Of a DNA stretch of 39,449 bases, positions 1 through 9,577 are shown one piece after another. This stretch comes from Chitinophagales bacterium. GTDB taxonomy: Bacteria > Bacteroidota > Bacteroidia > Chitinophagales > Saprospiraceae. The stretch lies in NCBI GenBank assembly GCA_026928325.1, contig JAIXKS010000070.1, positions 1 to 39,449 on the forward strand, written 5' to 3'. Made by a program: the position numbers and the translations under genes. The notes below the pieces were generated by a model. The model had not been told where the DNA came from and searched no databases. It saw only the letters and a list, made by a program, of their open reading frames with translations. Position 1 is the first letter of the stretch, and the number at the start of each line of letters is the position of its first letter.

Positions 1-55
1 TTTAAAAAAAATAACTTCCATTATAATTTAAGTCTTTTTATAGACAGAGCACTAG
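1..55 (+). repeat. MITE-like repeat, copy 1 (3' part only)
   Basis: The window opens inside a copy of the ~165-bp repeat family. It has the AACTTCCATTATAATTTAAG segment and the terminal GACAGAGCACTAG, which ends at 55. The 5' two thirds lie outside the window. Compared with the other copies it has one extra base in the A/T run, so it is diverged. Confidence 0.9.
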
Positions 56-190
56 GACGGTATTAAGCTAAAGAGGCATGTGATGTCGCTTGACTGAATG
101 AACATAAATTAATTTACAATCAGTTAAGCTTTCATTGCAAATATCCAAAAGGTTCAAATTTATCAACATGATAAAAAATCAACAAAAACT

Positions 191-220
191 TTGTATAACC
201 AAAATATTTATGTAATTTTG
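191..220 (+). promoter_or_regulatory. Bacteroidota-type promoter of the XRE regulator
   Basis: TTG (191-193), 19 bases, then TAATTTTG (213-220). This matches the TTG-N17-23-TAnnTTTG consensus known for Bacteroidota primary sigma factors. The predicted start of transcription is about 224-226, giving a leader of about 27 nt before the ATG at 253. It is one of the two best promoters in the window. Confidence 0.75.
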
Positions 221-234
221 TCATTGATTGACAA
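218..234. promoter_or_regulatory. Putative XRE operator (inverted repeat)
   Basis: TTGTCATTGATTGACAA has 6-bp arms (TTGTCA/TGACAA) around a 5-base centre. It overlaps the end of the -7 element and the predicted transcription start. A repressor bound here would block initiation, so autoregulation by the adjacent XRE protein is likely. This is inferred from position and symmetry only. Confidence 0.55.
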
Positions 235-252
235 GTATAAATTTACAAGCAA

Positions 253-579
253 ATGAAAACAACGTTTGGAGAATATATCAGACAATTACGGACAGACAAA
301 GGTTTTACTTTGACTGAACTTGCCGCATTACTCAAACTTGATTCAGCAAATTTGAGTAAAATCGAAACTGGGAAACGCGAATTTGACGAAAAACGTTTAG
401 AAAGATTGGCAAATGCTTTTAACCTTGACATAGAAGAATTAAAGACTGAATATTTTGCAGACCAATTTGCAAAAAAGATTTATCAATATAATTGCTCAAC
501 AGAAACCTTAATTGTAGCAGAAGAAAAGGTCAATTATCTAAAAAGTCGGAATGTAAAACAAGATGAAATTAAATTCTAA
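253..579 (+). CDS. XRE/Cro-CI family transcriptional regulator
   Basis: A 108-aa protein with an N-terminal helix-turn-helix of the Xre type at about residues 6-60 (Y-I-R-Q-L-R, then SANLSKIETGKREF as the recognition helix region). A short C-terminal segment (about 65-108) may be helical and dimerise. Proteins of this size and shape are common as autoregulators of restriction-modification, toxin-antitoxin and other accessory modules. It is the first gene of a same-strand cluster reaching 3942, with 11 bases to the next gene. A consensus promoter and an overlapping inverted repeat lie just upstream, suggesting it represses its own operon. Its effector or target is not visible from sequence. 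Confidence 0.85.
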   Translation: MKTTFGEYIRQLRTDKGFTLTELAALLKLDSANLSKIETGKREFDEKRLERLANAFNLDIEELKTEYFADQFAKKIYQYNCSTETLIVAEEKVNYLKSRNVKQDEIKF

Positions 580-590
580 GAAAAGAAAGA

Positions 591-764
591 ATGACAAAAA
601 TAGAAACAATGTGGAATGAATTTGCAGACATTCCAATAGACGATAATGATGAAATTGAACAAGACTTTTATCATTGGGAAAAGGGAACATATCGTTTTGA
701 TATTTGGCATTGGTTTGACGAGAAACTTCCGAATGGTTTAGCTATGGAATTTATTCTTGTATAA
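591..764 (+). CDS. Small acidic conserved-looking protein (57 aa), function unknown
   Basis: The ATG at 591 opens a 57-codon frame that starts MTKIETMWNEFADIP and ends EFILV. It is acidic and rich in aromatic residues (WEKGTYRFDIWHWFDE in the middle). The spacing supports it as a gene: 11 bases after the XRE stop and 8 bases before the next ATG. I recall similar short proteins with a GT-R-x-(D/E)-(I/V)-WHWF core in many bacteria, without a known function; this is memory, not a search. No transmembrane segment. It could be an accessory or antitoxin-like partner of the module, but nothing in it proves that. Confidence 0.7.
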   Translation: MTKIETMWNEFADIPIDDNDEIEQDFYHWEKGTYRFDIWHWFDEKLPNGLAMEFILV

Positions 765-772
765 TACACACT

Positions 773-2620
773 ATGACATTACCCATAAACATAGATAAAT
801 TACTGCACGGCAATACTGTTGAATGGGATCGGATTGAACTAAAAAAAGGATGGAATCCTGAGGATATCATTCATACTTTATGTGCATACGCCAATGATAT
901 TAACAATTGGGATGGGGGTTATGTCATTATTGGAGTTGAAGAAGAAAATGGGAAAGCCAAGTTGCCCCCTATTGGTTTACAAGTTCAGGATTTGGATGCC
1001 ATTCAGAAAAGACTGATTGAATTGTCTCATAAGATAAGTCCTGTTTATATCCCTGTTTTTCAACCCTACTTAATGAATGGAAAGCACATACTGATTGTAT
1101 CTGCCCCTGCCGAAGACAACAGACCCTACAAAGCTCCTGTTAGTTTAAGTGAAAAAAGAACAGAAAGAGCAATGTTCATCAAACGAGGTTCAAAAACGGT
1201 AAGGGTTAGAGATGGTTCTGAGGATGAAAGACGACTTATTGAACTCACAGCTCGTATCCCTTTTGATGACAGAATCAACCAATCCGCAAAGTTAGATGAT
1301 TTAAATTTGCGTTTGATTCAAAACCATTTGAAAGAAGTTATGAGTTCTTTATATGAAGAAAGTACGAAAATTCCATTCGCTGAATTGTGTAGGCATTTAA
1401 TGATAGCCAAAGGTTCTGATGAATTTTTACGCCCAACAAATGCAGGATTGCTCTTGTTTAATGAAAACCCGGATAAATTCTTTTCAGGTGCAAAGATTGA
1501 TCTCGTTATTCATAAAAATGAAGTTGGGAAAGACTACATCGAAAAAATATTTACAGGTTCTATTGTTCAGCAGATTAGGGATGTTTTACAGTATTTTAAA
1601 TCAAATATTGTTGAAGAATTGGTCGTTAAATCAGCAAGACAAGCAGAATCTATACGTTTCTTCAATTATCCTTTTCAGGCTATAGAGGAAGCTGTTGTCA
1701 ATGCCGTTTATCATAAGAGCTATGAGCGGGAAAATCCGGTGGAGATTCAAATACATAAAGATAAAATTGAAATATTGAGTTTCCCCGGACCTATGCCACC
1801 TATTAATCAAGCTATGCTGAAAAAGCAAAGGGTTGTAGCACGAGATTATAGAAACCGTAAAATAGGTGGGTTTTTAAAGGAGTTGAAGCTTACAGAAGGT
1901 AGAGGAACAGGATTACCTATCATTCACAGCAGCATGGAAGAAAACGGCTCACCGCCACCAATTTTTGAAACGGATGAAAACAATGCCTATTTTTTGTGTA
2001 TTCTTCCCATTCATCCTTTAACCCTCACTATTCAAAACGAAAGAGCCATTGATAAAGCCAAAGATACTGTCAAGGGATTCAATGACTTGAGTGAGATAAA
2101 CACCTATCTCAGTCTCTCTGTCCCTGAAATTGGAGACAGAGATAGAGAAGCCATTAAAAGCGAAATTAACGATATAACTAAAATGGTTTTGAACTATTGT
2201 ACAAAACCAAAATCAAGAGATGAGCTATTTGAGAAAATAGGGCTCTATAAAAACACAAAAAACTTTCAAAACCATATAAAACCTTTGATTGATTTTGGTT
2301 GGTTAAACTACACGATACCCAATAAAATTACGAGTAGAGATCAAAAGTACTACACAACTGATTTAGGTAAAAAATTGCTCCTAATAGTTTCAGGGGATCA
2401 AAATTCAGGAATTAAAAGAATTCCGGTAGAGTCTTCAAATATAGCCTCTGTTGGATATGACGGAAATGAATGCATTTTGGAAATAAGATTCCACCACGGA
2501 GCTGTTTATCAGTATTTTGACGTGTCAAGAAAAATATTCGAAGAGTTAATGAGTTCACCTTCACCGAGTGCTTATTTTATGAATGAGGTCAAGGATAAAT
2601 TTAAACATAGGAGGAAATAA
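773..2620 (+). CDS. AlbA_2 (Schlafen-type) / HATPase-like ATP-binding protein with C-terminal KTSC domain
   Basis: 615 aa. Residues about 15-150 fit the AlbA_2/AAA_4 (Schlafen-related) nucleic-acid-binding domain: E18, IELKKG, NDINNWDGGYVIIGVEEENG, then FIKRGSKTVRV. About 295-410 resembles the GHKL-type ATPase half found in these proteins: an N-box-like EEAVVNAVYHKSYE with N310, then GRGTGLPII at 376-384. About 460-545 looks like a winged helix. Residues 550-615 are a KTSC domain (SSNIASVGYD, then VYQYFDV). Family members are annotated as transcriptional regulators or helicase-like, and many sit in accessory loci. The KTSC fusion is unusual in my experience. Third gene of the cluster; the next gene encodes a free KTSC domain. 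Confidence 0.8.
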   Translation: MTLPINIDKLLHGNTVEWDRIELKKGWNPEDIIHTLCAYANDINNWDGGYVIIGVEEENGKAKLPPIGLQVQDLDAIQKRLIELSHKISPVYIPVFQPYLMNGKHILIVSAPAEDNRPYKAPVSLSEKRTERAMFIKRGSKTVRVRDGSEDERRLIELTARIPFDDRINQSAKLDDLNLRLIQNHLKEVMSSLYEESTKIPFAELCRHLMIAKGSDEFLRPTNAGLLLFNENPDKFFSGAKIDLVIHKNEVGKDYIEKIFTGSIVQQIRDVLQYFKSNIVEELVVKSARQAESIRFFNYPFQAIEEAVVNAVYHKSYERENPVEIQIHKDKIEILSFPGPMPPINQAMLKKQRVVARDYRNRKIGGFLKELKLTEGRGTGLPIIHSSMEENGSPPPIFETDENNAYFLCILPIHPLTLTIQNERAIDKAKDTVKGFNDLSEINTYLSLSVPEIGDRDREAIKSEINDITKMVLNYCTKPKSRDELFEKIGLYKNTKNFQNHIKPLIDFGWLNYTIPNKITSRDQKYYTTDLGKKLLLIVSGDQNSGIKRIPVESSNIASVGYDGNECILEIRFHHGAVYQYFDVSRKIFEELMSSPSPSAYFMNEVKDKFKHRRK

Positions 2621-2704
2621 AATTGGTTGATAGGAGTTGTAAAAAATTGTCGGCAAGGTGATTAAATAGAGGAAAATAATTTTATAATTTTAAAATAAAT
2701 AATT

Positions 2705-2914
2705 ATGAACAGACAAACAGTAAATTCATCAAACATAGCTTCTGTTGGCTATGATGAAGCAACTTCAACTTTAGAAATTGAATTTTTAAACAATTCAATT
2801 TACCAGTATTTTGACGTGCCACAGCATATCTATCAAGTATTAATGAATGCTGATTCTCACGGTAAGCATTTGGCACAAAACATCAAAGGAGTTTATAGAT
2901 ATTCAAAGGTTTAG
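2705..2914 (+). CDS. Stand-alone KTSC domain protein
   Basis: 69 aa, essentially one KTSC domain: SSNIASVGYDEATSTLEIEF followed by the YxY-like IYQYFDVP motif. It shares the SSNIASVGYD and YQYFDV blocks with the C-terminus of the preceding 615-aa protein, but the DNA is clearly diverged, so this is not a recent duplication. KTSC was named from the C-terminus of some lysyl-tRNA synthetases. It also occurs alone, and RNA binding has been suggested but not shown. It lies 84 bases after the previous gene and its stop is 2 bases before the next ATG, which suggests translational coupling with the nuclease-like gene. Confidence 0.85.
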   Translation: MNRQTVNSSNIASVGYDEATSTLEIEFLNNSIYQYFDVPQHIYQVLMNADSHGKHLAQNIKGVYRYSKV

Positions 2915-2916
2915 AA

Positions 2917-3942
2917 ATGCTTAAAATAAATCAACAACTCAAAAGAATTGAAATCAAAGAATTTGAAATCGAAAATCAAATCGTATTCAACTACTTTGAC
3001 AAACTTCCAGCAAATGAAAGGGATGATAAATTACTTAGGGCAATTTACATTGGTGTATTGGCACTAATGGAAGACCGTATTTCTTCATTCCTTTCAAAAA
3101 CATCAAATGAGTTAGGAACAGAACTCGAAAGTTTGAAGATGATTTTTGAAATGAAGAAAGAGCTTTTCTACAAATCAACCATCAAAGGAACTTTAGCTGA
3201 GGATGAAATTGTAGAATTTTTAAACCAGTATTTTGCAGACAAAAAACTAAAAGACAGAGCATTTTTAACGGGTAATACCGCAGGCAAATTACCTAAAAAT
3301 AAAACAGGTGATATTATTTGCGAAGTTAATGGAATGCCTGATTTAAAAATTGTCATTGAGTGTAAGTTTGATAAAAGCGTTCGTTTAGGTAACATTGAAA
3401 GCAAAGACATTTTTACTCGTAAATCTGATACCGCTTGGAGTCAGTTGATAGAAGCTCAAGCAAACAGAGATAGCAAAGTAAGTTTGATTGTATTTGATAT
3501 TTCCTTAGTCGAAAACTCGATTTTAAAGAATTGTGAAAATGTGGGTTACATTCCTAGTGTTGGTTTTATTGCTATTATCAATTCACAAAAAGGAGATTAT
3601 AGTAATTTAGCCATTGCATATATGTTGGCTCGTGATATTGCTTTAAATGCTAAAGAAATCGAACTCGACAAAGATATTTTAGCAATGATAGTAAACCGTA
3701 TCATTAAAGACATTAATGAAATTCTGTCAATAAAATCTTTAGTTCACAACAATATTGACAACAACAAAGCAATTCTAAAACAACTTGAAAAGTCAATTCT
3801 TCTCATGGAATTTAATCAGGAATATTTAAGACACTTCCTAAGTCAAGGAACATTAACTAAAAAAGATTTACTAGATTTCTATTCTGGAGAGGATGTAAAG
3901 GACAAGTATCGGTTAATAGAAAGGGAAATTCATGAATTGTAA
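2917..3942 (+). CDS. Putative PD-(D/E)XK-fold nuclease, otherwise unknown
   Basis: 341 aa. A mostly helical N-terminus (1-90) is followed by a classic PD-(D/E)XK layout: a helix with E97 (AEDEIVEFL), GD at 131-132, a beta strand ending in E148-C-K150 (IVIECKFD), then a helix with Q176 and Q181 leading into the strand KVSLIVFDISL. The C-terminal ~110 residues are helical and possibly coiled coil. The order and spacing support a metal-dependent nuclease, but I cannot name the family. A RmuC-like or restriction-endonuclease-like fold is the main alternative. Last gene of the accessory cluster, starting 2 bases after the KTSC stop. The K/E/N-rich, AT-rich coding resembles its cluster mates rather than coaX downstream. 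Confidence 0.65.
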   Translation: MLKINQQLKRIEIKEFEIENQIVFNYFDKLPANERDDKLLRAIYIGVLALMEDRISSFLSKTSNELGTELESLKMIFEMKKELFYKSTIKGTLAEDEIVEFLNQYFADKKLKDRAFLTGNTAGKLPKNKTGDIICEVNGMPDLKIVIECKFDKSVRLGNIESKDIFTRKSDTAWSQLIEAQANRDSKVSLIVFDISLVENSILKNCENVGYIPSVGFIAIINSQKGDYSNLAIAYMLARDIALNAKEIELDKDILAMIVNRIIKDINEILSIKSLVHNNIDNNKAILKQLEKSILLMEFNQEYLRHFLSQGTLTKKDLLDFYSGEDVKDKYRLIEREIHEL

Positions 3943-4366
3943 TGTAAAAATTGAAGGTTAAATGTACTTTTGAAGATAAGACAAATCTATAATTGTATCA
4001 AAAACAAAGTAGGCTTTAAAACCATCTTTTCATATAGCATAAAATGTTGGGTAAAATCATGATAAAGACCTTATAGGAGTTTTTCATTGAATTTGATGTT
4101 TGAGTGTAGTTCCTAATCTAAATGAATTGTTAAGTTAATATTATCATGAAAGTGTATGATTCTTTCTTATGTTAGTTTGTTGGATAGAGTTCTCCTTGCA
4201 AATTAGCTTTTGAAACATTGTGATGAACCTATATAGGTTTAATAATCTTTTGAGGTATCAACCTTGTTATTTGCCCAGTCTGCACTTGGTGCATATCGGG
4301 CTATTTAAAAAAAATAACCGTATTTATGCCTAGGGATTAATAAAATTAAGATACATTTGCCTCCTT
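3943..4366. other. Gene-free stretch between the accessory module and coaX
   Basis: 424 AT-rich bases with stops in all frames and no RNA gene that I can recognise. Its only clear element is the -7 box at the right end. A short GCCC...GGGC pairing near 4275-4302 is too weak to call a terminator. Confidence 0.6.
4352..4359 (+). promoter_or_regulatory. -7 element TACATTTG of coaX
   Basis: It matches TAnnTTTG. It ends only 7 bases before the coaX ATG, so transcription should begin at or within a few bases of the start codon, giving a leaderless or near-leaderless mRNA. No good TTG was found at the -33 position. Confidence 0.5.
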
Positions 4367-7988: not shown

Positions 7989-8100
7989 GATTCGTTAGGA
8001 GCTTCAAATGCGTAAGTCCATGGAAGCGGCAGAATTGCGGCTATTTTGGGGTGTTATAGATTTTCTAATGCTTAATTCGGGTTTATAATGGAAGTATGCT

Positions 8101-8108
8101 TATTTTTG
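8101..8108 (+). promoter_or_regulatory. -7 element TATTTTTG of asnS
   Basis: It matches TAnnTTTG. The predicted transcription start is about 8112-8114, leaving a ~28-nt leader before ATG 8141. It lies downstream of the in-frame ATG at 8096, which therefore cannot be the translation start from this promoter. Confidence 0.5.
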
Positions 8109-8140
8109 CGTCCAAATATCATAAAATAGGAAAAATCATC

Positions 8141-9577
8141 ATGTCAAAAAGGATAAAAATTAAAGACATTTTCTCTGCACCAGTCAATCAGGCCTATACC
8201 ATTATGGGTTGGGTGCGAACTTTTAGAAACAATCAGTTTATTTCCGTAAATGACGGTTCTTGTCTTGCGAATATTCAGGTAGTGATAAATAGTGATCAAA
8301 TTGGAGAGGATGTTATCAAAAGAATTACATCTGGTGCTGGTATCAGTATTCAAGGTACGCTCATCGAGTCTCAAGGTAAGGGACAAACGGTCGAAATCGT
8401 GGCTGACCGGGTAGAGATCCTTGGCGATTGTGATGCAGAGACATATCCTATTCAACTTAAAAATAGACCGAGTTTAGAATATCTCAGAGAGATTGCCCAC
8501 TTGCGTTTCCGTACCAATGCATTCAGTGCGATATTTAGAGTACGTCATGCCTTGGCATTTGCGATTCATAAGTTTTTTAATGATAGAGGATTTTTTTATA
8601 TTCATAGTCCGATTATCACGGCAAGTGATGCAGAAGGTGCAGGCGAAATGTTCCAGGTAACTACCTTAGATTTGAATAATCCGCCTAGAAATGAAGATGG
8701 CAGTATCAATTATAAAGAAGATTTTTTCGAGAAACATACGAATCTTACGGTATCAGGGCAGCTAGAAGCCGAATTGGCTGCGTTGGCATTGAGTGAGGTT
8801 TATACTTTTGGCCCGACATTCCGTGCTGAAAATTCCAATACAACTCGACATTTAGCCGAGTTTTGGATGATTGAACCGGAAGTTGCGTTCAATGATTTGG
8901 ATGATAATATGGATTTGGCAGAAGATATGCTCAAGTATCTCATTCAATATGCATTGGATCATTGTGCTGAGGATTTGGCTTTTCTAGAGCAAAGGTTACT
9001 CGATGAAGAGAAGCAAAAACCACAGGCCGATCGTTCTGAAATGACGCTCATCGAGAAGTTGAAATTCTGTTTAGAGCATCCTTTTGAAAGGTTGACTTAT
9101 ACCGAAGCTATCGATATTTTGAAAAATTCAACACCGAATAAGAAGGGTAAATTTCAATACCCAATCAAAGCATGGGGTGCCGATTTACAATCTGAGCATG
9201 AGCGGTATCTAGTAGAGAAACATTTCAAAAAACCAGTAATCCTGACCAATTATCCTAAGGAGATTAAAGCATTCTATATGCGAATGGACGAAGATGGCAA
9301 GACGGTTCGAGCCATGGACGTTTTATTTCCGGGAATCGGAGAAATCATCGGTGGATCTCAAAGAGAAGAACGGCTTGACAAATTGATGCAGCGCATGGAA
9401 GAGATGCATATCCCTAAGGACGAGATGTCTTGGTTTTTAGATACTCGAAAATACGGAAGTGTTCCACACGCCGGGTTTGGATTGGGTTTTGAGCGATTGG
9501 TGCTCTTTGTCACAGGTATGACCAATATCCGTGACGTGATCCCATTCCCAAGATTCCCGGGTAGTGCGGAGTTTTAA
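8141..9577 (+). CDS. asnS: Asparaginyl-tRNA synthetase
   Basis: 478 aa class IIb synthetase; charges tRNA-Asn with asparagine in the cytosol. An OB-fold anticodon-binding domain lies at about 10-105 ([22 protein letters not shown]). The catalytic core shows motif 2 ([21 protein letters not shown], the Asn-type variant) and motif 3 ([13 protein letters not shown]), ending [11 protein letters not shown] as is usual for AsnS. I chose ATG 8141 ([11 protein letters not shown]) over the upstream in-frame ATG 8096 because the conserved N-terminus begins here and the -7 element lies between the two. It is convergent with the efflux operon, 9 bases away. Confidence 0.95.

Follow-up and report, generated by a model that had tools for sequence, protein, structure and literature searches.

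The closest described relatives of the locus analyzed here are the SIR2-HerA systems, named 'Nezha' in the literature and represented by the PADLOC models of SIR2 (PDLC04093) and HerA (PDLC04105) and by the PDB 8wiv series. A passage of PMC9503650 states, as its authors' unpublished observation, that a DNA-binding protein of the KTSC kind may be coupled to HerA, together with an endoDNase that replaces the sirtuin, and it infers from the mutual exclusivity of sirtuin and endoDNase that such sirtuins may modify DNA. In jumbo phages, KTSC is termed an RNA-binding domain in a passage of PMC7824862. We analyzed a contig stretch of 39,449 nucleotides from a Chitinophagales bacterium (JAIXKS010000070.1), called the window below, of which positions 191-3942 hold the locus under study: the genes of an XRE-family regulator, a 57-aa acidic protein, a protein in which AlbA_2 and HATPase domains are fused to KTSC, a free KTSC protein and a PD-(D/E)XK-like protein that we call NUC (Table 1). 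The window KTSC and NUC were closest to the tails of SIR2-HerA operons, and KTSC resembled the third gene of these operons or the C-terminal domain of their HerA, a component that is frequent in them and not universal. Unlike these systems, the locus contained no SIR2 gene among its five open reading frames (ORFs) before coaX and no HerA (DUF87), which also had no match at E <= 1e-60 in the whole genome of this bacterium; nor did the five genes include HsdM, HsdS or HsdR of a type I restriction-modification (R-M) system. Our preferred reading, to which we give a probability of roughly 0.55, is that the locus represents an anti-phage operon that is mosaic and has been shortened, and that NUC is an effector common to different ATPase sensors.

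Relatives of NUC were collected by scanning genome contigs with short conserved peptides. We kept 80 of 90 and added one Paracoccus plasmid locus, which gave 81 loci; L010 was left out as the same locus as L056. The initial annotation had proposed to test whether the five genes keep their order elsewhere. In this strict form the expectation failed, and one conserved five-gene module was rejected as an explanation: the same set was found in none of the 81 loci, and in none of them did an AlbA_2-KTSC gene directly precede KTSC and NUC. What recurred were two separable units, the AlbA_2-KTSC cassette and the NUC tail. The ATPase usual between them was missing in the window, where no ATPase of the kinds seen in the other NUC loci lay between the AlbA_2 gene and KTSC-NUC. 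DNA homology with L015 spanned 773-2686 and ended where the SIR2 gene of L015 starts, and homology with L010, L011, L012, L049 and L056 began at 2683 and spanned KTSC and NUC. The window KTSC shared 85% identity with the KTSC of L011 and no more than 57% with any free KTSC encoded in the five AlbA_2-KTSC loci, and the window NUC was 93-94% identical to those of L011 and L012. By these boundaries, the locus reads as a mosaic of an upstream AlbA_2/HATPase-KTSC cassette and, from about 2681-2690 onward, the last two genes (KTSC and NUC) of a SIR2-HerA-KTSC-NUC operon whose SIR2 and HerA are absent. The simplest reading would be that both genes were lost from an operon with the gene order of L015, which was not itself the direct source, since its SIR2, HerA and KTSC belong to another subfamily. 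In L015 (2832-8000, on a Lacinutrix neustonica chromosome), the start of AlbA_2 and the SIR2 and HerA frames were interrupted by mutation or sequencing error.

A defence-type ATPase gene lay upstream of NUC, within about 6.5 kb, in 75 of the 81 loci. HerA was present in 34 loci, 32 of which also carried SIR2 and KTSC; the other ATPases were OLD-type (17 loci), AAA_13/PDC-S06 (16, with a mere remnant in L046), PDC-S46 (3) and two SMC/LmuB-like kinds (5 and 2), as counted with families named from cluster representatives, not locus by locus, and with several loci cut by contig ends. The commoner SMC/LmuB-like kind was named by a weak PADLOC match (E 7e-6) and had no Pfam match, L033 and L047 carried both HerA and OLD, and L028 and L080 start inside HerA at the contig edge. 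Among the 81 loci, 65 had a small protein (KTSC, KTSC-like, WYL-like or 82-aa) and 13 had R-M genes. On the NUC tree, a poorly resolved one in which 44 of 79 inner branches were open, the ATPase type changed 35 times among 75 labelled rows, against a mean of 37.8 after shuffling (as few changes or fewer in 122 of 1000 shuffles), suggesting that ATPase type is near-randomly assorted on it. The shuffle test left out the window and the six loci without a recognised ATPase, L010 was left out of the tree, L033 and L047 with their two ATPases were labelled OLD, and the remnant in L046 was labelled AAA_13; alignment A1 comprised 38 relatives and the window. Even among NUC pairs at least 90% identical, the ATPase types differed in 61 of 88. 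The same flanks were combined with different middles: a type IIG R-M pair with SIR2-HerA (L011, L012, L013), AAA_13 (L016) or PDC-S46 (L052), and the AlbA_2-KTSC gene with four middles, namely SMC-like (L014), SIR2-HerA (L015), OLD (L018, L019) and AAA_13 (L053). HsdM-HsdS was another upstream flank of this sort.

Some NUC loci had further peculiarities. L033 and L047 are composite operons, in which SIR2-HerA-KTSC is followed by a KTSC-like protein with an OLD-type ATPase and then by a single NUC. In L063 (6240-7985; the same cluster in L073), a protein with a reverse-transcriptase domain (RVT_1) is encoded within a type I R-M operon, where it separates the OLD-type ATPase from NUC. Directly 3' of NUC in L033 (9026-11061; the same clusters in L047, L048 and L089) were DUF3375 and DUF4194/MksE-type genes, which we take to be Wadjet-like. 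At 8001-9005, L085 and L086, from two Bacteroidota metagenome-assembled genomes, carried a divergent NUC (59%) and shared two downstream gene clusters.

The protein that stays while the ATPases change is probably a nuclease, judging from its conserved residues. The initial annotation had called it PD-(D/E)XK-like, and the putative catalytic signature agreed with this: D132, E148 and K150, shared with the PD-(D/E)XK nucleases (PDDEXK_15, restriction-endonuclease-like), were present in all 83 sequences (the window, the 81 loci and the duplicate L010), and the D...(E/D)-x-K motif was conserved. The family assignment was less firm, as PDDEXK_15 was the sole Pfam match and fell below its cut-off (E 0.0012, 19.3 vs 27 bits). 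Unlike these nucleases, NUC has long conserved helical regions and matches no Pfam model above the cut-off; all 83 sequences also agreed at many positions from 10 to 95. An AlphaFold2 model had a mean predicted local distance difference test (pLDDT) score of 76.6 and a predicted template modelling (pTM) score of 0.48, and in this predicted model D132, E148 and K150 lay on a pair of strands that precedes a helix. The best PDB fold matches were weak, VC1899 (1xmx, 0.29) and MspJI (0.31) with unrelated folds next, and MspJI and Ecl18kI were among the weak matches at E 0.3-1.1; the best match among viral models was an Mrr-domain protein, with E 2.8e-4 but a root-mean-square deviation of 27. A PDB sequence search with the window NUC gave no relative at E <= 10, and PADLOC models gave 0 families at E <= 1 for the window NUC and KTSC. 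When 39 NUCs were compared with PADLOC, at most three matched any single model, weakly (best E 0.0016). NUC was rare, being present in three of the 395 genomes sampled from the phylum and in two of the 298 from the family, with its own genome counted, and a housekeeping role was rejected on this distribution. It was absent from the viral contigs, phage records and E. coli genomes searched (E. coli by DNA only), and 72,556 plasmid records contained one, in Paracoccus.

KTSC was found fused to HerA (L040), to a PIN-like domain (L028) and to AlbA_2/HATPase (the window), and because of these fusions it is a reasonable inference that KTSC is an adaptor. PDB 8wiv, which we take to come from a Paenibacillus Sir2-HerA system, is a HerA protein whose C-terminal part matched KTSC, and the HerA-KTSC fusion of L040 matched 8wiv near full length (E 3.3e-219). 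The PIN-like domain with C-terminal KTSC in L028 (938-1909) lay between the HerA/KTSC genes and NUC. The other small proteins of NUC loci were compared with KTSC and with the WYL domain, using alignments of 16 KTSCs (the window's included), 13 of 18 members of the 72-aa cluster, 11 of 13 of the WYL-like cluster and all four of the 82-aa cluster. A relationship of the 72-aa proteins to KTSC was weakly supported and not adopted, 2 of 13 matching KTSC (best E 0.0019) and a profile comparison giving 37%. The 95-aa and 82-aa proteins matched the WYL domain in 10 of 15 cases at E <= 1 (best 3.4e-10).

The upstream cassette is a unit with relatives of its own. Its fusion protein contained SLFN_AlbA_2 (residues 17-144, 53 bits vs a cut-off of 25.3) and HATPase_c_4 (322-404, 45.7 bits vs 26), both above the Pfam thresholds, then Fic-like_C (476-527, slightly below cut-off) and KTSC (553-610). 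Homologues 70-84% identical near full length were found in L014, L018, L019 and L053, and in two pieces in L015; L037, flagged by the AlbA_2 query solely through its KTSC gene, was not counted as a fusion. The order XRE, 57-aa, AlbA_2-KTSC was complete in L018 and L019, whose XRE proteins were just 33-35% identical to that of the window. The 57-aa gene preceded AlbA_2-KTSC in L014 too, with no XRE gene seen; L015 had an XRE gene (by eye) and no 57-aa gene that we could find; and L053 had neither in a window-like arrangement. The XRE protein matched PADLOC models of capH, RmrA and control proteins, mainly over its helix-turn-helix part. The 57-aa protein (7 D and 7 E vs 3 K and 1 R, pI 4.1) had no Pfam match. 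Its homologues occurred in 65 plasmid and 18 phage records, and thus it is no marker of the window's system; as a clue to the system it was rejected, since the three plasmid neighbourhoods viewed placed homologues in other settings and phages carry it as well. Its family, phrog_24588 (function unknown), is common on Acinetobacter and other plasmids and also present in phages. Over AlbA_2 and HATPase_c_4, the fusion protein is homologous to the AlbA_2/RecG-C-like ATP-binding proteins of R-M-like neighbourhoods, whose neighbours were HsdM-like in L091 and L096 and HsdS- and HsdR-like in L107. It differs from them in its C-terminal KTSC, their matches ending at query residues 392-546.

The defence setting is well supported by the genomic context: related loci carry HerA with SIR2, OLD-type, PDC-S06 and PDC-S46 ATPases and, in some cases, R-M genes. 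The regulated defence module proposed in the initial annotation survives in this respect, and not as a purpose-built five-gene unit (0/81 loci); from the context we infer a defence function for the window operon. According to our preferred reading, SIR2 and HerA would have been removed at the AlbA_2/KTSC junction, and this removal would have left the AlbA_2 protein, with its own KTSC domain, as the sole ATPase-like partner of NUC. The XRE protein would repress the operon through the inverted repeat. During infection, the AlbA_2/HATPase protein may bind a replication intermediate or the nucleic acid of the phage; KTSC, present both as a fused domain and as a separate subunit, would dock this sensor to NUC; and NUC, serving as effector for different ATPase sensors, would cut nucleic acid and halt the infection.

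Several points weigh against this reading. Six NUC loci (L051, L081, L085, L086, L088, L090) had no recognised ATPase, suggesting that NUC may act alone; except in L051, their NUC was just 48-62% identical to that of the window, and in L090 it lay 346 bases from the contig start. The fold of NUC is weakly supported at its pTM, with unrelated folds mixed among the matches, and Foldseek gave no PDB match at E <= 0.001. HerA, matched at E <= 1e-60 in 14 of 395 phylum genomes, occupied 16 places, several of them cut by contig ends; KTSC was recognised beside 11 of these, or 12 if the KTSC-domain match of L159 is counted, and just two (L147, L151) had NUC beside them. Among 33 plasmid records with HerA of this type, the Paracoccus record also had NUC, and three further ones that we viewed lacked NUC and carried KTSC alongside SIR2 and an ATP-binding protein. 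Thus KTSC is usually the third component of the SIR2-HerA type and NUC an add-on.

The AlbA_2/HATPase protein, in turn, may not need NUC, since KTSC-less relatives adjoined R-M-like genes without NUC in three viewed loci. AlbA_2 matches at E <= 1e-90 occurred in 23 of 395 phylum genomes, the own genome included. In favour of the preferred reading, KTSC, NUC and the 57-aa gene were all absent from the fetched flanks of 27 loci of KTSC-unfused relatives, four of which came from a search of a second family. In that family, the unfused AlbA_2 protein was present in 5 and NUC in 4 of 79 genomes. A strict tie of the KTSC fusion to NUC was considered, as NUC was found in 0 of 22 other phylum-sample genomes with an unfused homologue, but rejected, because G718, a genome of the second family, combines an unfused relative with NUC, on separate contigs; the sampling is also biased, since NUC led us to every fused gene except that of the window.

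The junction and the selection counts bear on the shortening itself. The right side of the junction consists of about 16 A+T-rich bases together with the KTSC identity, and for this reason a deletion and the joint import of KTSC and NUC by recombination are both compatible with it. Differences in NUC, KTSC and AlbA_2 were mainly synonymous. Against two comparison loci, in counts that may include changes on the comparison side, synonymous and non-synonymous differences were 67:11 in NUC (neutral expectation 22:56), 9:2 in KTSC (3:8) and 57:17 in AlbA_2 (23:51), and NUC against five loci gave 24:9 (10:23). Changes assigned to the window side with more loci were 8:1 in NUC (expected 2.6:6.4), 8:1 in KTSC (2.9:6.1) and 17:2 in AlbA_2 (6.2:12.8). 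All these counts used codons on which the comparison loci agree, a choice that leans towards conserved codons. The synonymous bias may mostly reflect time before the shortening.

A broader proposal, which we regard as tentative, is that KTSC-NUC is a common nuclease co-effector for at least six defence ATPase types (HerA with SIR2, OLD, AAA_13, PDC-S46 and the two SMC/LmuB-like kinds), reached via KTSC or WYL-like adaptors, and that the window's AlbA_2/HATPase-KTSC alone would be a natural minimal version. It is unlikely that the locus is a leftover of a SIR2-HerA operon minus two effector genes and without a defence function of its own. The missing ATPase between AlbA_2 and KTSC and the lack of a HerA match in the genome fit such a remnant, and NUC is kept elsewhere without an intact ATPase: L046 retains KTSC and NUC with its AAA_13 gene cut to 71 aa, and the match of L051 is limited to NUC and the last KTSC codons. 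Against it stand the five open frames, the synonymous bias in three genes (with the reservation about its age) and the recurrence of the AlbA_2-KTSC gene in five other loci. We consider it very unlikely that NUC serves exchange, cutting DNA so that recombination swaps the upstream defence cassettes. NUC does stay constant while ATPase types are near-random on its tree, and the type IIG R-M, AlbA_2-KTSC and HsdM-HsdS flanks do surround different middles, but ordinary homologous recombination between conserved flanks yields the same pattern, no target site was seen, though no search was aimed at one, and residues 10-95 are strongly conserved, suggesting contacts with proteins in addition to catalysis. 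A purpose-built five-gene module whose KTSC domains bring ATPase and nuclease to an RNA target, as first proposed, is highly improbable, for all that the operon has two KTSC domains and the PMC7824862 passage terms KTSC RNA-binding, because no such module was found in the 81 loci and, beside HerA, the PMC9503650 passage terms KTSC DNA-binding and couples it with an endoDNase.

The five ORFs, their gaps, the low G+C content, the promoter-like site and the repeat are real features of the window. As the initial annotation had described, ORFs and a pattern scan gave five same-strand genes separated by 11, 8, 84 and 2 bases behind a promoter-like site with an overlapping inverted repeat; all five frames were open. 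It was likewise right on coaX as the next gene (Pfam Pan_kinase 4.5e-52) and on composition, with a G+C content of 33.1% in 253-3942 vs 38.1% in 4367-39449. The Bacteroidota promoter consensus is TTTG / TAnnTTTG. In the window, TTTG at 190-193 was followed, after a spacer of 19 bases, by TAATTTTG at 213-220, and the consensus pattern with a spacing of 17-23 bases occurred three times on both strands of the whole window. The inverted repeat is a possible operator for the XRE protein.

Table 1. Features of the locus and its borders (positions in the window).
Feature	Position	Strand	Basis
End of multicopy, MITE-like repeat, cut by contig end	1-55		genome self-matches
Promoter-like site TTTG-N19-TAATTTTG, Bacteroidota type	190-220	+	pattern scan
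Inverted repeat TTGTCA-N5-TGACAA	218-234	+	overlaps end of promoter-like site
XRE-family regulator, 108 aa	253-579	+	Pfam HTH_3 3.5e-12
57-aa acidic protein, phrog_24588 family	591-764	+	PHROG E 2.7e-14
AlbA_2/HATPase_c_4/winged-helix-like/KTSC fusion, 615 aa	773-2620	+	Pfam
Segment downstream of AlbA_2 gene with probable junction at about 2681-2690	2621-2690	+	homology boundaries
Free KTSC protein, 69 aa, SIR2-HerA type	2705-2914	+	Pfam KTSC and identity to L011
PD-(D/E)XK-like protein NUC, 341 aa	2917-3942	+	invariant D132/E148/K150, weak Pfam match, model and fold searches
Non-coding right edge of inserted DNA	3943-4303		G047 homology resumes at about 4304

The miniature inverted-repeat transposable element (MITE) reported at the left border was confirmed in part. 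A multicopy repeat end is present: with 40 out of 322 candidates scored, window 1-190 had at least 52 further matches in its own genome, at 84-100% identity and almost all of them within roughly bases 1-55. The contig starts at base 1 inside the repeat, and a complete element lies outside the view. Some of the matches were paired about 160 bases apart on one strand. In a related genome (G047), whose coaX was 77% identical, a phosphoglucomutase/phosphomannomutase gene (Pfam) lay 174 bases upstream of coaX; a matching phosphomannomutase-type gene lay at the end of a separate contig of the own genome (C62:120-1433); and homology to G047 picked up again at about 4304, shortly before coaX. Therefore the locus was probably inserted between these two genes, C62 and the window contig being joined here by comparison with G047 and not by an assembly link, and its left part may be incomplete. 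The mutase-coaX order is backed by G047 only, as six other coaX neighbourhoods (L119-L124) had different genes upstream.

The NUC loci are like the HerA variant in the PMC9503650 passage in that a KTSC protein and a nuclease stand beside a defence ATPase. They differ in that the endoDNase there replaces the sirtuin, whereas SIR2, HerA, KTSC and NUC occur together in 32 of the 81 loci. The rule of sirtuin or endoDNase, as worded in that passage, does not fit the NUC family, and the endoDNase meant there may or may not belong to this family. Searches of the open-licence literature gave no paper whose title or first abstract lines dealt with NUC as a shared nuclease. What emerges more broadly is a mobile, probable nuclease common to several defence ATPases, a function that we infer from gene neighbourhoods. 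If true, several defence ATPases that have been treated as self-contained would share one nuclease partner for which PADLOC has no model, and signalling from ATPase to nuclease would become a single testable question. The window would offer a small natural version of such a system, without SIR2 or HerA, and the data are relevant to the view, stated in the PMC9503650 passage, that a HerA system has either a sirtuin or an endoDNase.

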